Shown: piece after piece, positions 22,349-37,338 of the stretch
Numbering within the stretch: position 1 is the first letter of the stretch
Layout: every line of letters starts with the position of its first letter
Assembly (NCBI RefSeq): GCF_004403395.1
Contig: NZ_SOGN01000024.1
Span: forward strand, 37,620-101,619
DNA length: 64,000 bases
Source of the DNA: Cryobacterium cheniae
GTDB lineage: Bacteria > Actinomycetota > Actinomycetes > Actinomycetales > Microbacteriaceae
Direction of reading: 5' to 3'
Notes under the pieces: model-generated
Databases searched by the model: none
The model's input: only the letters and a program-made list of their open reading frames with translations
Told to the model about the DNA's origin: nothing
Position numbers and translations under genes: made by a program

Positions 22349-24265
22349 TCAGCAGTCGCAGTGGCCCTCCGGGGCGGGCGTCGACGCGGGCACATCGAGC
22401 ACGGGGCTGCGGTCGAAGAACCCATCGGGCTTCAGCTTGAAGCCGGCGGTGTCGACGGGCATGATCGGCCAGTCCTCGATGCGCGGATAGTGGGTGAGGC
22501 CGAACGTGTGCCAGAGCACGATGTCCTGGCCGTCGATGTCACGGTCGGCTTCGATGTAGGCCGGCAGGCCGGCGCCACCCGCGTGCTGGTTGACGAAGTC
22601 GCCGGTCGGGTAGCGCTCGTCCTCCGCGTACCGGGTCACCCACAGGTCTTTGGTTGCGAAGGTCGCCCGTCGGGCCACGGACGAGTTCTCGTCGGCCAGC
22701 AGAGTCGGCTGCCCTTCCGGGTAGAGCTTGTAGCCGACCGGTTCACCGAGTCGGTTGAGCACGTTCGGGTTGGACACGAGCCAGGTGCGCCCGCTCCGCA
22801 TGTCGGCCTCGCGAACCCCCTCGGACTCACGGGACAGGAGCGTGCGCCGGCGGGTGAACGCGTTCCCGCGCTCGTTGCCGGGCCCCATCGGGACGCGCAC
22901 GGCCTCCTCCTCCTCGACCCGGTTGGTGTTGCCGTCGAGGGCCATGTCCAGTCGGGCGCTGAACAGGTGCTGGTGGAACGGTGCGCCCAGGCCCGGGGCC
23001 AGCTCCGAAGCATACGGGTAACCCTTGCCGGGATAGGCGCTGGTGAATACGACGCCGGTGGCCTTGGCCTCGAACTCGATCGTGCCGTCGAGGTAGAGGT
23101 ACCAGTAGAAGCCGTAGTCGTAGTTGCCCACGGTGGTGAAGAAGGAGATCACGAGCCGGCGGTTGCGGCGGGTGTACTCGATGCCCGACCAGAGGTCACT
23201 GTGCTTGGCGAGGATGCTCCAGTCCTCCTCGTGCATGCAGATGCCGTTTTTGATCGTGCGCGGGTTGCCGAAGCCGTCCGTGATGGCCGGGCTGAGGTAG
23301 GTGATCTCGCCGAGGCAGTCGCAACCGAGTTCGAGCGAGTTCGCATACTGGCCGACCAGGTACTCGCCCGTGTCGAAGTAGTTCTGCCAGGACCGGACGG
23401 GCGCGGGGTCGCCGTAGGGCACGACCATCTCCGCGATCGACGCCCGGTTGATGATGGAACGTCGGGTGCCCTTGTCGTCGAAGCCGATGTTGTGCAGCAC
23501 GACCCCCTCGCGCACGTCGAAGCCCACGTCCAGGCTCCATTTCTCCCACTCGACGTGGTTGCCGCCGGACACGGTGAAGCTCGGTCCCTCCGGCTGGGTG
23601 ATCTCGATCGGCTTGAGGGTCTCGCGCAGCGGCCCGGTCAGCGTGGGATCGGTGTAATTACCGTGCTCGGCGGGGATCGGCACGACGCCGAAGTCGATCA
23701 CCTGGTCGACGGTCTTGCTGACGATGTCGACATAGGCGACCAGACCGTCGATGGGGTGCGCCCACGCGCTGTCCTCCGGAAAATTTTGCACGAAGGCGAG
23801 GCCGCGCAGGATGCGACGCCCCTTCTCCTCCGGGTATTCGAAGACGCCCGCGGACAGCGGCGCCACCCGCACGTCGGCCACGTCGAGGCCGCGATCGGTC
23901 AGGGCCTTCAACCAGCGCTCATCGTGCGTGAGGAGCTCTTCCACCGCGGCGAATTCCTCCTCGAGCACGGGCAGCTCACCCGTCTCCGCGGTGTCGAGCA
24001 CGACCACGGACTCGACCGTCTTTCGAGTCGCGGACACGGTGACGTCCCGGGGTGCGGTGCAACCTGACACGTCGTGCAGGAAGACCCGGAACCGCCGGTC
24101 GGGCTCCCCCGTGACGCCGCGGGGCGGGTCGAGCAAACCGAGATAGGCCACCCGGGTGCTCTCCCCGAGCAAACCGGCATCGGCCAGAAGACTGCGCACC
24201 GAGAGAATCTCCTCCGCCGACGCGAGGGCGTAAGCGGCGGTGGCTGCGAGCGAAACGGAGGTCAT
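22349..24265 (-). CDS. tynA: Copper-containing primary amine oxidase
   Basis: 638 residues. It oxidises a primary amine (tyramine, phenylethylamine or histamine) to aldehyde, ammonia and peroxide. The topaquinone-forming tyrosine is in TVGNYDYG at residue 382. A copper-ligand pair is in [12 protein letters not shown] and a third His in the C-terminal [11 protein letters not shown] region. Total length and the tyrosine position equal those I recall for Arthrobacter globiformis phenylethylamine oxidase. AAGGGA precedes the ATG. Divergent from the TetR gene; the adjacent AraC-type regulator and permease suggest an inducible amine-catabolic island, but no aldehyde dehydrogenase is next to it. Confidence 0.94.
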
Positions 24266-24320
24266 GGTTTCCCTTTCCGAGGGCTACAGGCGGCCGGACA
24301 AGAAGCATCCATCCGAACTC

Positions 24321-24405: not shown

Positions 24406-25002
24406 ATGCCGAAGGTTGTCGATCACGACCAGCGCCGAGTCGAACTCGTCGAGGCGACCTGGCGGATCATCGCCCGCCACGGCATTGAGGGTGCCACCAT
24501 GCGTGACATCGCCGCCGAGGCTGGCTTCGCCAACGGCGCCCTGAAACCATATTTCTCCACCAAGGACGACCTACTGACCTTTGCGTTCAGCCACGTCTTC
24601 GGCCAGACCAGCCGGCGCATGATCGACGCCACGGTGGGCCGGTCAGGGCTGAGTGCGCTCCGGGCCTATTGCCTCGAGATCCTCCCGCTCGACGACAACC
24701 GGATCAGCGAGGCACGCATCGTCATCCCGTTCTGGCAGAAGGCCCTGACGGATGCCGCCAAGGCCGAGCTGCACGCCTCGGCCATGCTGCACTGGCGCGA
24801 CATCATCGTCGAGCAGCTGCGGGAGGGCCGGGCCGCCGGCGAACTCCGCACCGGCGCGCCGGACGAGGACATCGCGGGGCTGCTGATGAACCTGGTCCTG
24901 GGCGCCCAGATCACGGCCGTGCTCTCCCCGGCCGAGAACTCCCCGGACCAGCTCGTCGCCCAACTGGATGCGGCACTTCGGTTGATCAGCACGGGAGAGT
25001 GA
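24406..25002 (+). CDS. TetR family transcriptional regulator
   Basis: 198 residues. The DNA-binding domain (about 8-55) reads VELVEATWRIIARHGIEGATMRDIAAEAGF then YFSTKDDLLTFAF; the rest is the helical ligand/dimer domain (TetR_C_6-like). GGGAGG precedes the ATG by 6 bp. It is divergent from tynA and upstream of the AraC-type gene, and probably senses an amine, aldehyde or polyamine-like ligand and represses at the 24321/25045 sites. Confidence 0.9.
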   Translation: MPKVVDHDQRRVELVEATWRIIARHGIEGATMRDIAAEAGFANGALKPYFSTKDDLLTFAFSHVFGQTSRRMIDATVGRSGLSALRAYCLEILPLDDNRISEARIVIPFWQKALTDAAKAELHASAMLHWRDIIVEQLREGRAAGELRTGAPDEDIAGLLMNLVLGAQITAVLSPAENSPDQLVAQLDAALRLISTGE

Positions 25003-27843: not shown

Positions 27844-28827
27844 TCACGGCCCGAACCCGGCGTGACGGATGCCCCAGCGCACCGACCAGGACTCCCCCGG
27901 TTCGACCCAGCGCAGGCCCGCACCCGAATTGAAGGCATTCGCGGGGGCGGTCATGGGCTCGATGGCCACCGCCAGCCCCAGGTAGGGGCCGCCCTGCCCC
28001 TCGAAGGGGAAGTTTCGCGGGGTGAAAACCTGGACGTTGCGGATGCTCTGGTCACCCCAGATCGTGACACTGCGGCCGTCGGGCGCGGTCAGCGAGGCCA
28101 CCCGGGGCGTGCCGGGCTCCTCGCCGGTCACGTCGGACCGCCCCTCGATGGACTCGGGCCCCACGCCGCCGAATCCGTCGTCGAGATCGATGTCGCCCAC
28201 CCGGCGCCCCGCGCGCAGATCGAACCGGGTGCCGACGACGGTGGATTCCCCGACCGGGTTCTGGCGGTCGTCGACGTCGATATGGGTGTGCGCCGCGATG
28301 GTGAGCACGAGGTCCTCGGTGGGGACACCGCCGATCTTCGGGTACGGATGCGCGCCGAGCGCGACCGGGGCCGTCTGCGGGCCCATGTTCCGCACCGTGT
28401 GGGTGACCTCGAGACCGTCGTCCGTGAGCGCGTACCGGACGGTGGTGTCGAGCAGGAACGGATAGCCGGCCTGCGGGAAGACCGTGGCGGCCAGTGTCAC
28501 CGAACCCGGGCTGCGTTCGAGCAGGCGGTAGGGCGAATACCGCAGGAGGCCGTGGATGGCGTTGGACAGTTCCGGCTCGGTGAGCGCCAGCCGCTGCACG
28601 ACGCCCTCGTGGTTCCAGCGGCCGTCCCGGATGCGGTTGGGCCACGGCATCAGCACGATACCCGCCCCCCACGGCGGGGTGGCCTCCGCCGCGAACGGCT
28701 CGACCAGGTCTATGCCGTCCACGGAATACAGGCGGATGCCGGCGGCCACCTCGGTGATGATCGCCCGGGCCGGACCACTCGGCGTGGCCGCCCTCAACTC
28801 ATATTGGACTCCCGTCGCAGCGCGCAT
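27844..28827 (-). CDS. galM: Aldose 1-epimerase family protein (galactose mutarotase-like)
   Basis: 327 residues. A beta-sandwich GalM-like enzyme that interconverts alpha and beta anomers of aldoses. The catalytic pair is recognisable: His in ALGAHPYPKIG and the general-base Glu in VAIEPMTAPANAFNSG. The segment FAAEATPPWGAGIVLMPWPNRI is a conserved sugar-binding strand. It lies 9 bp downstream of the DeoR gene on the same strand and near galT/galK, so it probably serves galactose use. Confidence 0.88.
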   Translation of the reverse strand: MRAATGVQYELRAATPSGPARAIITEVAAGIRLYSVDGIDLVEPFAAEATPPWGAGIVLMPWPNRIRDGRWNHEGVVQRLALTEPELSNAIHGLLRYSPYRLLERSPGSVTLAATVFPQAGYPFLLDTTVRYALTDDGLEVTHTVRNMGPQTAPVALGAHPYPKIGGVPTEDLVLTIAAHTHIDVDDRQNPVGESTVVGTRFDLRAGRRVGDIDLDDGFGGVGPESIEGRSDVTGEEPGTPRVASLTAPDGRSVTIWGDQSIRNVQVFTPRNFPFEGQGGPYLGLAVAIEPMTAPANAFNSGAGLRWVEPGESWSVRWGIRHAGFGP

Positions 28828-28836
28828 GGTGTCAAC

Positions 28837-29769
28837 CTACTCCGGTTGCAGAACGGTCAGGCCCGCCTCGCGGAGGGGCGCCAGCAGGGCCTCGTCGGCC
28901 GCGGCATCCGTCACCAGGGTGTCGAACGCGCGCAGGGGACCGACCTGCCCGAGGTGCACCTGGCCGAGCTTGGAGGCGTCGGCCACGGCGATCGCCCGGG
29001 TCGCGGCGGCGAGCATGAGCGTTTTGATCCCGGCCTCGGGGAGGTTGATGTTGGTGACCCCGTAGCCGGCATCGACGCCGTTGCAGCCGATGAAGGCGAG
29101 GTCGGCGTGCACCTGGCTGAGGACGGTCTGGGCGAGCGGCTCGACCAGGGAATGCTGCAGCGGGCGAAGCGACCCTCCCGTGACGATCACGGTGAACCGC
29201 GGGATGGCCGGTTCGAGGGCGAGGGCGATGCTCAGCCCGTTCGTGATGATGACGACGTCGGTCAGCTCGGTGCGGGCCAGTAGGGCGTGGGCGATCGAGA
29301 GGGTGGTCGTGCCGACATCGAGGATGATGCTCTGCCCGCTCGTGACGAGGGACGCGGCGAGCGCGCCGATCTGCTGCTTGGGCAGCACGGATGACGCGAG
29401 CGCCTCCTCGAAGGAGAACTCCCGCAGCGGGCGGCCGCTGGCGGGCACGGCCGGAACCGCCCCGCCGTGCACGCGCTGCAGCGCTCCGGCGGACTCGAGC
29501 AGGTCGAGGTCCGCCCGCGCCGTGACGCCGGACACCCCGAACGCCTCGCGCAGCTCACGCACCCGCACGAATCCGCGCTCACCGACGAGACGTTGGATCT
29601 GCTCCCGTCGCTGGTGTGCCGGGACGGTGTCGCGATCGGCAGACGCGTCGGTCAGGTCGGTCGGTTCGGTCGGTTCGGTCGGTTCGGTCGGTTCGGTCGG
29701 TTCGGTCGGTTCGGTCGGTTCGGTCGATTCGGTCGGTTCGGTCGATTCGGTCGGTTCGGGAGAAGCCAT
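28837..29769 (-). CDS. DeoR family transcriptional regulator with an EPT-repeat N-terminal tail
   Basis: 310 residues from the ATG at 29769 (a TTG six bases earlier is possible). The start is followed by eleven Glu-Pro/Ser-Thr tripeptides, an extension not found in usual DeoR proteins. The helix-turn-helix (about 50-105) reads RREQIQRLVGERGFVRVRELREAFGVS; the C-terminal DeoRC sugar-phosphate sensor has LDVGTTTLSIAHALL and VTGGSLRPLQHSL. It likely represses the divergent galTK and possibly galM, released by a galactose phosphate. The gap to galT is 84 bp with AT-rich direct repeats TTAGTTT. Confidence 0.88.
   Translation of the reverse strand: MASPEPTESTEPTESTEPTEPTEPTEPTEPTEPTEPTDLTDASADRDTVPAHQRREQIQRLVGERGFVRVRELREAFGVSGVTARADLDLLESAGALQRVHGGAVPAVPASGRPLREFSFEEALASSVLPKQQIGALAASLVTSGQSIILDVGTTTLSIAHALLARTELTDVVIITNGLSIALALEPAIPRFTVIVTGGSLRPLQHSLVEPLAQTVLSQVHADLAFIGCNGVDAGYGVTNINLPEAGIKTLMLAAATRAIAVADASKLGQVHLGQVGPLRAFDTLVTDAAADEALLAPLREAGLTVLQPE
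29659..29757. repeat. In-frame 9-bp tandem repeat coding for EPT tripeptides
   Basis: Eleven consecutive 9-bp units (plus-strand GGTCGGTTC) encode alternating Glu-Pro-Thr or Glu-Ser-Thr at residues 5-37 of the DeoR-type regulator. Because the unit is a multiple of three, copy-number change would lengthen or shorten the tail without frameshift. Confidence 0.92.
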
Positions 29770-29786
29770 ACCCAATCTTCACTTAG

Positions 29787-29806
29787 TTTGCTTTAGTTTT
29801 CAATCC
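29787..29806. promoter_or_regulatory. AT-rich direct repeat in galT/deoR divergent promoter
   Basis: The 78-bp gap between the DeoR and galT starts contains TTAGTTTGC followed by TTTAGTTTTC. AT-rich repeats in a divergent gap beside a DeoR gene are the natural candidate for its operator. No strong symmetric site is visible. Confidence 0.3.
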
Positions 29807-29853
29807 GAAGGATATGGTTTCACTTGCGCAAATCAGCTAGCATGGTTTTCGCC

Positions 29854-31068
29854 ATGAACACACCAGACTTCGTAGCCGACACCGGCATCATCCGTCACCG
29901 CCACACCCTCGCCGATGGTCGGGACCTCATCTACTTCGATGACCCGCAGACCACCCTGCCGCCGGAGCGCGCGGCCGACCTGCGCGAACTCGACCCGCGC
30001 CCCGCCACGGCCCGGATGCGCCAGGACCCCCTCACCGGCGAATGGGTCTCGATCGCCGCCGCCCGCCAGAACCGCGTGTTCCTGCCGCCCGCCCACCTGG
30101 ACCCGCTCGCCCCGTCGACGCCGGGGAACCCGTCCGAGGTACCCAGCAACTACGACGTCGCCGTGTTCGAGAACAAGTCCCCCTCGTTCGGGCCTCTGCT
30201 CACCGACGCGGACGCCCCCGCCGGTCTCGACGACCTGAACACCATCGGCCTGAACCGCATCCGCACCTCCGTCGGCCGCTGCGAGGTCGTCTGCTTCAGC
30301 CCCGAGAACGAGGGTTCGTTCGCGAGCCTGTCCGTCGTGCGGGCCCGCACCGTGATCGAGGCCTGGGCCGAGCGCACCCACGCCCTGTCGCAGCTGCCCG
30401 GCGTGGAACAGGTCTTCCCGTTCGAGAACCGCGGCGAGGCGATCGGCGTCACGCTGCACCACCCGCACGGCCAGATCTATTCCTACCCGTACGTCACACC
30501 GCGCACGCAGCGGGTGATCGCCTCCCTCGACCAGTACGGGCCGAACCTGTTCGCCGACATCCTCGCCAGTGAGCAGGCCGGCGGCCGCGTCATCCTCACC
30601 GGAGAGCACTGGACGGCGTTCGTGCCGTTCGCCGCCCGCTGGCCGATCGAGGTGCACATGCTGCCGCACCGCCACGTGCCCGACTTCGCCGCGACCAGCC
30701 TGGCCGAACGCGACGAGCTGGCCGTGCTCTACCGGCGTCTGCTGCGCGGCATCGACGCCCTCTACGACACCCCGACGCCGTACATCGCGGCCTGGCACCA
30801 GGCCCCGGTCTCGGTGCGCCGGGACGAGATCCGGCTGATGCTGCAGGTGACCAGCCCGCGCCGGGCCGCGGACAAGCTCAAGTTCCTGGCCGGGTCGGAG
30901 GCCGCCATGGGCGCCTGGATCGGCGACGTCACGCCCGAGCAGGCGGCGGACAACATTCGCCGCGCGGTCGAACGCTCCGCCGTGGCGGACGCGGCCGGCG
31001 AGCAGGCCGGCCCCGCAGCATCCGTTCCCACTATCAGCACCACGCTCGAAGGGCAGACCCGCGAATGA
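29854..31068 (+). CDS. galT: Galactose-1-phosphate uridylyltransferase
   Basis: 404 residues from the ATG at 29854 (ATG 29842 also possible; no clear ribosome site, so the mRNA may be leaderless). It exchanges UMP between UDP-glucose and galactose 1-phosphate. Motifs: RQDPLTGEWVSIAAARQNR, FENKSPSFG and the catalytic HHPHGQIYSYP with the uridylylated histidine. galK overlaps its stop by four bases (31065-31068), making a galTK pair. Confidence 0.95.
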   Translation: MNTPDFVADTGIIRHRHTLADGRDLIYFDDPQTTLPPERAADLRELDPRPATARMRQDPLTGEWVSIAAARQNRVFLPPAHLDPLAPSTPGNPSEVPSNYDVAVFENKSPSFGPLLTDADAPAGLDDLNTIGLNRIRTSVGRCEVVCFSPENEGSFASLSVVRARTVIEAWAERTHALSQLPGVEQVFPFENRGEAIGVTLHHPHGQIYSYPYVTPRTQRVIASLDQYGPNLFADILASEQAGGRVILTGEHWTAFVPFAARWPIEVHMLPHRHVPDFAATSLAERDELAVLYRRLLRGIDALYDTPTPYIAAWHQAPVSVRRDEIRLMLQVTSPRRAADKLKFLAGSEAAMGAWIGDVTPEQAADNIRRAVERSAVADAAGEQAGPAASVPTISTTLEGQTRE

Positions 31069-32225
31069 CCGACCTCAGCCAGACCGTGACGGAGGGCTTC
31101 ACGAGCCGCTTCGACGCCTCCCCGACCGGGCTGTGGTCCGCCCCCGGCCGCGTCAACCTGATCGGCGAGCACACCGACTACAACGACGGGTTCGTGTTCC
31201 CCTTCGCGATCAACCGGCGCACGGTCGTCGGGCTGGGCCTGCGCGGCGACCGCCTGCTGCGGGTGGCGAGCTCGTTCGCCGAGGAGACCGTGGAGCTGCC
31301 CCTCGACGACCTGACCCCGGAGAACCTGGCGGGCTGGTCGGCCTACCCGCTCGGCGTGGCCTGGGCCCTCGGCCAGTTCGGCGCCGACTTGTCCGCCCTG
31401 CCCGGCTTCGACGTGTTCATCGACTCGGACGTGCCGATCGGGGCGGGGCTGTCGTCGTCCGCCGCGATCGAGAGCGCGGTCGCCGTGGCCCTGAACGACC
31501 TCTGGCAGTTGGGACTCGACCGCCGCGTGCTCGCCCGGGTGGGCCAGCTGGCCGAGAACCGGGCCGTCGGAGCCCCCACCGGCATCATGGACCAGTCCGC
31601 GTCGCTGCTGGGCGAAGCCGATTCCGCCGTGTTCCTGGACTGCCGCAGCCTCGACGCCGAGGTGATCCCGCTCGGCTTCGACGTGGCCGGCCTCGAACTG
31701 CTGATCATCGACACCCGGGTGAGCCACGCCCACTCGACCGGCGGGTACGCGTCGCGCCGGGCATCCTGTGAGCTGGGTGCACGGATGCTGGGGGTCACCT
31801 CCCTGCGCGACCTCACCGTGGACGACCTGGCCCGGGCCCAGAAGGTGCTCGACGACGAGACGTTCCGCCGGGTGCGGCATGTGGTCACCGAGAACCAGCG
31901 TGTGCAGGACACCGTGCGCACCCTGCGCGAGCAGGGACCGACCGCGATCGGCGCCCTCCTGGACGCCTCGCACGTGTCCATGCGGGACGACTTCGAGATC
32001 TCGGTGCCCGAGCTCGACCTCGCCGTGGAGACCGCCCGCGGCGCCGGGGCCCTCGGCGCCCGGATGACCGGCGGCGGCTTCGGCGGCGCGGCCATCGCCC
32101 TGACCCCGCGTGCCCTGATCCCCGCGGTCACCGCGGCGGTCACGGCCGCGTTCGCGGCTCGGGGTTTCGCGGTCCCGGACCTGTTCGTGGTGCGCGCGGC
32201 CGATGGGGCAGCCCGGGAGCAGTAG
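31065..32225 (+). CDS. galK: Galactokinase
   Basis: 386 residues of the GHMP kinase family. It phosphorylates galactose for GalT. The sugar-binding motif GRVNLIGEHTDYNDG is near residue 27, the ATP-binding motif PIGAGLSSSAAIE near 125, and motif 3 MTGGGFGGAAIAL near 330. Start overlaps galT, implying coupled translation. Followed by a 12-bp terminator stem at 32260. Confidence 0.96.
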   Translation: MTDLSQTVTEGFTSRFDASPTGLWSAPGRVNLIGEHTDYNDGFVFPFAINRRTVVGLGLRGDRLLRVASSFAEETVELPLDDLTPENLAGWSAYPLGVAWALGQFGADLSALPGFDVFIDSDVPIGAGLSSSAAIESAVAVALNDLWQLGLDRRVLARVGQLAENRAVGAPTGIMDQSASLLGEADSAVFLDCRSLDAEVIPLGFDVAGLELLIIDTRVSHAHSTGGYASRRASCELGARMLGVTSLRDLTVDDLARAQKVLDDETFRRVRHVVTENQRVQDTVRTLREQGPTAIGALLDASHVSMRDDFEISVPELDLAVETARGAGALGARMTGGGFGGAAIALTPRALIPAVTAAVTAAFAARGFAVPDLFVVRAADGAAREQ

Positions 32226-34830: not shown

Positions 34831-35715
34831 CTACCGGCTGAGTGACCGCTCCGCGGCCTTCACCACGTTGCAGAGCAGCATGGCGCGGGTCATCGGTCCG
34901 ACGCCGCGCGGGTTCGGGGACAGGAAACCGGCGACCTGGGCGACATCCGGGTGCACGTCACCGGTCAGGGCACCCTTGCCGGTGATCGGGTCGGTCACCC
35001 GGGTGATGCCCACGTCGAGCACCGCGGCGCCGGGCTTGACCCAGTCGGCCTGGATCAGGTGCGGCACGCCGACGGCCGCCACCACGATGTCGGCGCGGCG
35101 CACCTCGCCGGGCAGGTCGACCGTGCGGGAGTGGGTGAGGGTGACCGTGGCGTCCAGGCCCTTGCGGGTGAACAAAAGGCCGAGGGGGCGCCCGACCGTG
35201 AGGCCGCGCCCGACGACGACCACCCGCCGGCCGACGATGGGCACGTCGTAGCGGCGCAGCAGCTCGACGATGCCGGCCGGGGTGCAGGGCAGCGGCGAGT
35301 CCAGCTCGCCCTCGATGCCGAGCACCAACCGGCCGAGATTCGTCGGGTGCAGGCCGTCGGCATCCTTCGACGGGTCGATCAGTTCGAGCATGGCGTTGTC
35401 GCTGTGGCCCACCGGCAGCGGCAGCTGGATGATGTAGCCGGTCACCGCGCGGGCGGAGTTCAGGTCGGCGATGGCGGCGCGCACATCGGCGCTGGTCGCC
35501 GACCCGGGCAGGTCGACGCGGATCGATTCGATGCCGACCTCGGCGCAGTCGCGGTGCTTGCCCGCGACGTACGAGCGCGAACCCGGGTCGTCGCCGACCA
35601 GGAGCGTGCCGAGCCCGGGCACGATGCCGTGAGCGCGCAGCTCCGCGATGCGATCAATGAGCTCGGTCTTGACCGCTGAGGCGGTCTTGACTCCGTCGAG
35701 GGTGATTGCCGTCAT
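34831..35715 (-). CDS. folD: Bifunctional methylene-THF dehydrogenase / methenyl-THF cyclohydrolase
   Basis: 294 residues. It makes 10-formyl-THF from 5,10-methylene-THF. Family blocks: [29 protein letters not shown] with the catalytic lysine, [31 protein letters not shown], and the NADP-binding [16 protein letters not shown]. glyA lies 186 bp upstream on the same strand. The leader between them has a 7-bp tandem repeat and a palindromic element. Both belong to one-carbon metabolism and may share the ZTP riboswitch at 37247. Confidence 0.96.
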
Positions 35716-35738
35716 TGTGGATCCATTCGATCGTTCGT

Positions 35739-35766
35739 GCTGACTGCTGACTGCTGACTGCTGACT
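35739..35766. repeat. Tandem repeat of four 7-bp units (GCTGACT) in the folD leader
   Basis: Four perfect head-to-tail copies, 24 to 51 bp upstream of the folD start codon, in the region where a promoter or ribosome site would lie. Repeat-number change here could alter folD expression. Confidence 0.85.
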
Positions 35767-35790
35767 GCGGGGTGCCGCAGGTGCGTGCGA

Positions 35791-37200: not shown

Positions 37201-37246
37201 GGGGTCTCCTCAGACTTCTTGATTAACGACGTGATGATCAATCGTC

Positions 37247-37325
37247 GTGGCCCAGGCGTGCGGTCACTAACCGTGTCAGTCGCTCCCCGATGGTGACCCA
37301 TCTTTCCTGCTACGCCAGTCGCGAC
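37247..37325 (-). promoter_or_regulatory. ZTP (pfl) riboswitch before glyA
   Basis: On the minus strand the leader contains, in order, GCGACTGGCG, a hairpin GATGGGTCACCATC, GGGGAGCGA, a variable spacer and CCGCACGCCTGGGCC. This order of conserved blocks (ACTGGC, GGGGAGC, CCG..CCTGGGC) is the pfl motif that binds ZTP/ZMP. ZTP accumulates when 10-formyl-THF is short and turns on one-carbon genes. It ends about 47 bp before the glyA ATG, leaving room for an expression platform (an imperfect ACGACGATTG...ACGTCGT hairpin). Confidence 0.82.
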
Positions 37326-37338
37326 AGGGTCGATCTTA

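Follow-up and report, generated by a model that had tools for sequence, protein, structure and literature searches.

A nine-base in-frame repeat array in the N-terminal leader of a DeoR-family regulator beside the galactose genes of Cryobacterium cheniae

A DeoR-family regulator gene, lying divergently from galT and galK in the 64,000-nucleotide stretch of the Cryobacterium cheniae genome analysed here (the window), carries 11 in-frame nine-base units close to its start. On the best reading, this array has expanded in an ordinary way, changes fast and is probably near-neutral, in a regulator leader that is disordered and under little constraint; we assign this reading a probability of roughly 77%.

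The array occupies exactly positions 29659-29757 (99 bases, 33 codons, read on the minus strand), and the coordinates given for an 11-unit in-frame 9-bp repeat on a DeoR regulator by an earlier sequence-only reading proved correct to the base. That reading had taken all units as EPT, which holds for the nine GAACCGACC units and fails for units 2 and 4 (2/11), which are GAATCGACC and encode EST; a degenerate extra unit, GACCTGACC (DLT), comes directly after the 11. From the ATG at 29769-29767, the minus-strand product begins with MASP, runs through the 11 units (codons 5-37) and continues with DLTDASADRD, and the end of the array proximal to the helix-turn-helix (HTH) consists of seven identical units. 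Tandem units, a period that is a multiple of 3 and a location within the coding frame, all present here, are the marks of a variable in-frame tandem repeat. TRF called the array at 29648-29759 (period 9, 12.4 copies, 94% matches), and its score of 196 was the highest among 28 rows for the window. A 23-base array probe allowing up to 3 mismatches gave 11 matches in the window, all within the array, and 0 in 100 dinucleotide-preserving shuffles, while three copies of the degenerate pattern GARNCNACN gave 9 overlapping matches in the window's own genome, all at the array (reversed control, 0). Elsewhere in the window, the second-best tandem repeat (score 104) is a 7-bp unit, GCCTCAG, in 9.7 copies at 1118-1183, the period of which would shift the frame if it lay inside a gene. 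A perfect 7-bp tandem of TGCTGAC (4.4 copies) was also found at 35738-35768, just past position 35715, where a presumably FolD-like minus-strand ORF starts.

The regulator (28837-29769, minus strand) was delineated from the ORF list, Pfam and a structure model, and is 310 aa long. Pfam places HTH_DeoR (PF08220) at residues 54-105 (51.9 bits, cut-off 21), preceded by a leader of 53 residues, and DeoRC (PF00455) at residues 131-288 (144.9 bits, cut-off 31.8), which is the succession of DNA-binding and sensor domains found in the DeoR family. Its best NCBIfam model is AgaR (176.7 bits, under the equivalog cut-off of 260), and it falls below the cut-off for all 10 of the listed named equivalog families; a solved relative, the deoxyribose operon repressor 7l6l, corresponds to residues 129-293. 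Divergent from the regulator lie galT at 29854-31068 on the plus strand, encoding galactose-1-phosphate uridylyltransferase (Pfam GalP_UDP_transf and GalP_UDP_tr_C above cut-off; TIGR00209, 129.1 bits, cut-off 102.1), and galK at 31065-32225 on the plus strand, encoding galactokinase (Pfam; TIGR00131, 299.3 bits, cut-off 226.65). Downstream, on the strand of the regulator, is a gene for an aldose 1-epimerase family protein at 27844-28827 (Pfam Aldose_epim, 100.3 bits, cut-off 27). The short intergenic stretch between the regulator and galT (29770-29853, its end resting on a galT start taken as 29854) holds GAAACCA, ATTGAAAA and AAGTGAAGAT boxes on the regulator strand, which are conserved in 50 orthologues and may be operator or ribosome-binding elements. 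Gene neighbourhood and these upstream boxes are what mark the protein as a candidate galactose repressor, and it probably represses galT-galK, a target suggested by the neighbourhood. A wider operator pattern, GAAACCA-N0-12-TTTC, was tried and set aside: its two window matches (0.07 expected) lie outside the gal intergenic stretch, at 24252-24271 over the start of an ORF and at 24543-24555 inside a coding-like stretch. With Rfam at gathering thresholds, no known RNA element was found at the array site, and the window matches, one tRNA and one ZTP riboswitch, all lie elsewhere. The ZMP/ZTP riboswitch is at 37243-37332 on the minus strand (50.9 bits; gathering score 39).

Translation of the regulator very probably begins ahead of the array, because ATG, GTG and TTG are all absent between the array and the HTH and because the start in the orthologues is placed after a AAGTGAAGAT-like box. 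The ORF list opens the gene at a TTG at 29775, and the ATG at 29769 was preferred on the conserved position of the start. In the 50 orthologous loci, the upstream alignment shares the AAGTGAAGAT box together with GAAACCA and ATTGAAAA, and the best in-frame start (49 ATG, 1 GTG) lies 5 or 6 nt past the AAGTGAAGAT-like box, a regularity that is partly circular since the starts were chosen by that box; its mismatches number none in 22 loci, one in 15, two in 2, three in 8 and four in 3. The possibility that the array is untranslated and the protein starts closer to the HTH, which had been named in advance as the outcome that would overturn the sequence-only reading, was looked for and appears very improbable. 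It could draw on the standard DeoR models, which begin about 3 residues ahead of the HTH, and on a ribosome-binding site ahead of the ATG that looks weak by eye. However, the first in-frame candidate start after the array is a GTG within the HTH itself (RGFVRV), and a downstream start was rejected because the stretch from array to HTH offers no codon for it; the start follows the AAGTGAAGAT-like box in 50/50 orthologues, with at most two mismatches in 39 and three or four in 11, and both genomes with an array have it in a length divisible by 3.

The translated leader is predicted to be disordered. In the AlphaFold2 model, pLDDT is below 50 for nearly all of residues 1-47, with block means of 37-44 over residues 1-40 and 52 over residues 41-50, and the first helix begins at residue 51; the input was a 39-sequence alignment, and a short alignment of the leader would also lower these values. 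This alignment combined the window protein with 38 of the 65 loci, among 80 fetched, that gave a scripted ATG start. The profile is as expected of a disordered tail, and the earlier proposal of about 33 disordered residues ahead of the DNA-binding domain agrees with the 33 residues added by the array, very low pLDDT values for most residues from 1 to 47 and a Pfam HTH starting at residue 54.

Leaders of this kind are usual in the genus, and they differ widely. From 57 Cryobacterium genomes (collections with one genome per species), 50 orthologous loci were read; six genomes were dropped for distant matches (G006, G014, G019, G026, G043 and G050; best E 1e-29 to 1e-35) and one, G032, for a gene in two pieces. 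The orthologue matches as two overlapping pieces in G008 as well as in G032, a pattern that points to a broken frame or an error of assembly. Measured from the start to the RR ahead of the HTH, leader length in the 50 orthologues is 13-55 aa (median 20, SD 9.3), with 35 residues or fewer in 46/50 and more than 40 aa in four (46, 47, 55 and 55); a motif-based check of the spans succeeded for 29/50 loci and was set aside. Sequence and charge vary as well: the net charge runs from -12 to +3, is 0 in 25/50 and is positive in 14. The leader of the window protein, which adjoins the DNA-binding domain, has a net charge of -12. It had been stated that DeoR proteins normally begin at the HTH, and this is borne out by the NCBIfam DeoR-family repressor models, which start about 3 residues ahead of the point aligned to residue 51-52, but not by the Cryobacterium orthologues. 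The 53 residues ahead of the Pfam HTH thus depart from a trait that is usual for the family rather than defining, and the comparison of orthologue N-termini that the earlier reading called for shows a leader to be normal in Cryobacterium and that of the window protein to be extreme in length only.

The array itself is present in 2/50 orthologues and absent from 48/50. The second copy, in Cryobacterium sp. M96 (G027, locus L002, the same as L051), comprises 6 pure GAATCGACC units at the same place, and the flanks can be aligned with those of the window genome (L001): both genes start with GGTATGGCTTCT, both have ATGGCTTCT upstream of the array, and a DRD..PAHQRR segment follows in both. C. sinapicolor (L005) has an 18-aa leader, MATPERTDPDILPAHQRR, without the array. 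These three loci form one clade in FastTree (support 0.977), within which the branching differs among the trees built from the core protein, from core DNA and from 3.4 kb of DNA (supports 0.72, 51 and 87), and the three disagreeing trees are compatible both with loss of the array in C. sinapicolor and with separate gains in the other two. At one and the same place, therefore, the copy number is 11 in the window, 6 in Cryobacterium sp. M96 and none in C. sinapicolor, and as judged from these sequences it has changed after the split of close relatives, so that length variants without frame loss, as had been predicted, do occur between related species. Moreover, in the sister pair L029 and L031 (support 1.0) the leaders are long and repetitive but of a quite unrelated composition, TRPVPS/Pro-rich in one and with AGTR-type repeats in the other, the leader of L029 being identical to that of C. 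psychrotolerans (L072); by this comparison, at least two lineages have come to carry lengthened leaders.

Outside the leader, the regulator is under purifying selection, with dN 0.031, dS 0.235 and dN/dS of about 0.13 between the core regions of the window and Cryobacterium sp. M96 genes (259 codons). In the expansion favoured here, a nine-base unit would have been duplicated within a leader of little constraint, its copy number may then have shifted by replication slippage or unequal recombination, and changes of 9 bp would persist since they keep the frame and the protein downstream is needed, with the tail presumably having little effect on repression. The seven identical HTH-proximal units would fit recent local duplication, as would the relative's array of EST units alone. 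What the expanded clade retains is an Asp/Glu/Ser/Thr-rich array, not random sequence, as would also be expected under a selected role.

Such a role could be that of a length-adjustable dial, in which 11 acidic residues beside the HTH reduce or adjust binding to the operator and copy number alters galactose-gene expression. The net charge of -12 next to the DNA-binding domain and the unequal copy number between close relatives would suit it, whereas leader charge and sequence are not conserved among the orthologues (neutral in half, positive in 14), L029 and L031 have long leaders with charges of +3 and 0, and 35 residues or fewer suffice in 46/50; we regard this explanation as unlikely. A more far-reaching form, in which acidic EPT/EST units are gained and lost in frame, so making the repression of the galactose genes evolvable, and lineages have reached different settings through independent expansions, seems slightly less likely still. 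The suggestion that length variants tune galactose regulation is thus held to be unlikely, because the leaders are unconserved, and nothing was found in its support.

The array might instead aid expression, with a hydrophilic N-terminal tail acting at the level of early codons, mRNA or solubility, without any part in regulation. Its beginning at codon 5 would be in keeping with this, as would other Cryobacterium genes with similar units right after the apparent start: among 20 fetched places with units of this kind, 14 read them in the longest frame, and 6/14 have them directly after the apparent start, in AroB-like, LysS-like (three), 3-hydroxyacyl-CoA dehydrogenase-like and PLP decarboxylase-like genes, four of them Pfam-checked. 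However, the mRNA start folds no differently from shuffles (z 0.63; 145/200 shuffles fold at least as well), which leaves a structured mRNA at the regulator start unsupported, and beyond the regulator gene the unit pattern barely exceeds its reversed control in frequency (24 matches, in 18/57 genomes, against 19 in 9/57), so that a genus-wide habit of EPT-type tails is weakly indicated at most; an expression aid is accordingly judged improbable. Hardly to be expected at all is a role of the DNA itself, whether as an operator array or through antisense coding in the plus-strand frames SVG or GRF: the array does lie close to the start of galT (within 100-200 bp) and two plus-strand ORFs cross it, but it is missing from all except two orthologues, in contrast to the conserved intergenic boxes. 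Among other repeat-bearing proteins of the genus, LysS-like proteins (L145, L148, L156, L160-L189) have length-variable N-terminal leaders, readable in 23/30 fetched loci, with small repeats (TEP, AEQ, DEIT) in some species. Two related proteins of G014 (L146 and L147), which we take to be HNH-type endonucleases, contain long internal ETT/ETI tandem arrays of unequal length.

The natural series of 0, 6 and 11 units in the same gene and start region makes it possible to ask whether a disordered tail beside the DNA-binding domain matters to how a bacterial repressor works. Should that be so, in-frame repeats would allow regulation to change by degrees, with no phase switching; the likelier lesson of the array is how freely a leader lengthens when the frame alone matters.

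Compared with known systems, the regulator resembles the DeoR/GlpR-family sugar repressors (AgaR, GlpR, SrlR, DeoR) in having HTH_DeoR and DeoRC above the Pfam cut-offs, and differs from them in about 47 extra residues ahead of the family start and in scoring below all the listed NCBIfam cut-offs. No repeat-bearing DeoR regulator was found in the literature searched, the coverage of which was partial. The array of Cryobacterium sp. M96 is its closest counterpart, with the same gene, insertion place and 9-bp period, but has 6 units, all EST, against 11 in the window, 9 of them EPT. With in-frame coding tandem repeats (minisatellites) in bacterial genes, the array has in common tandem units, a period divisible by 3, a copy number varying between relatives and an N-terminal location, and coding repeats favour the N-terminus, particularly in pathogenic bacteria, according to a review (PMC3899988). 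It differs in lying on a cytosolic transcription regulator, whereas the classic bacterial cases presented there involve either surface proteins or repeats that switch the frame (phase-variable). The array is a fresh example of an already known type of variation, the in-frame coding repeat.
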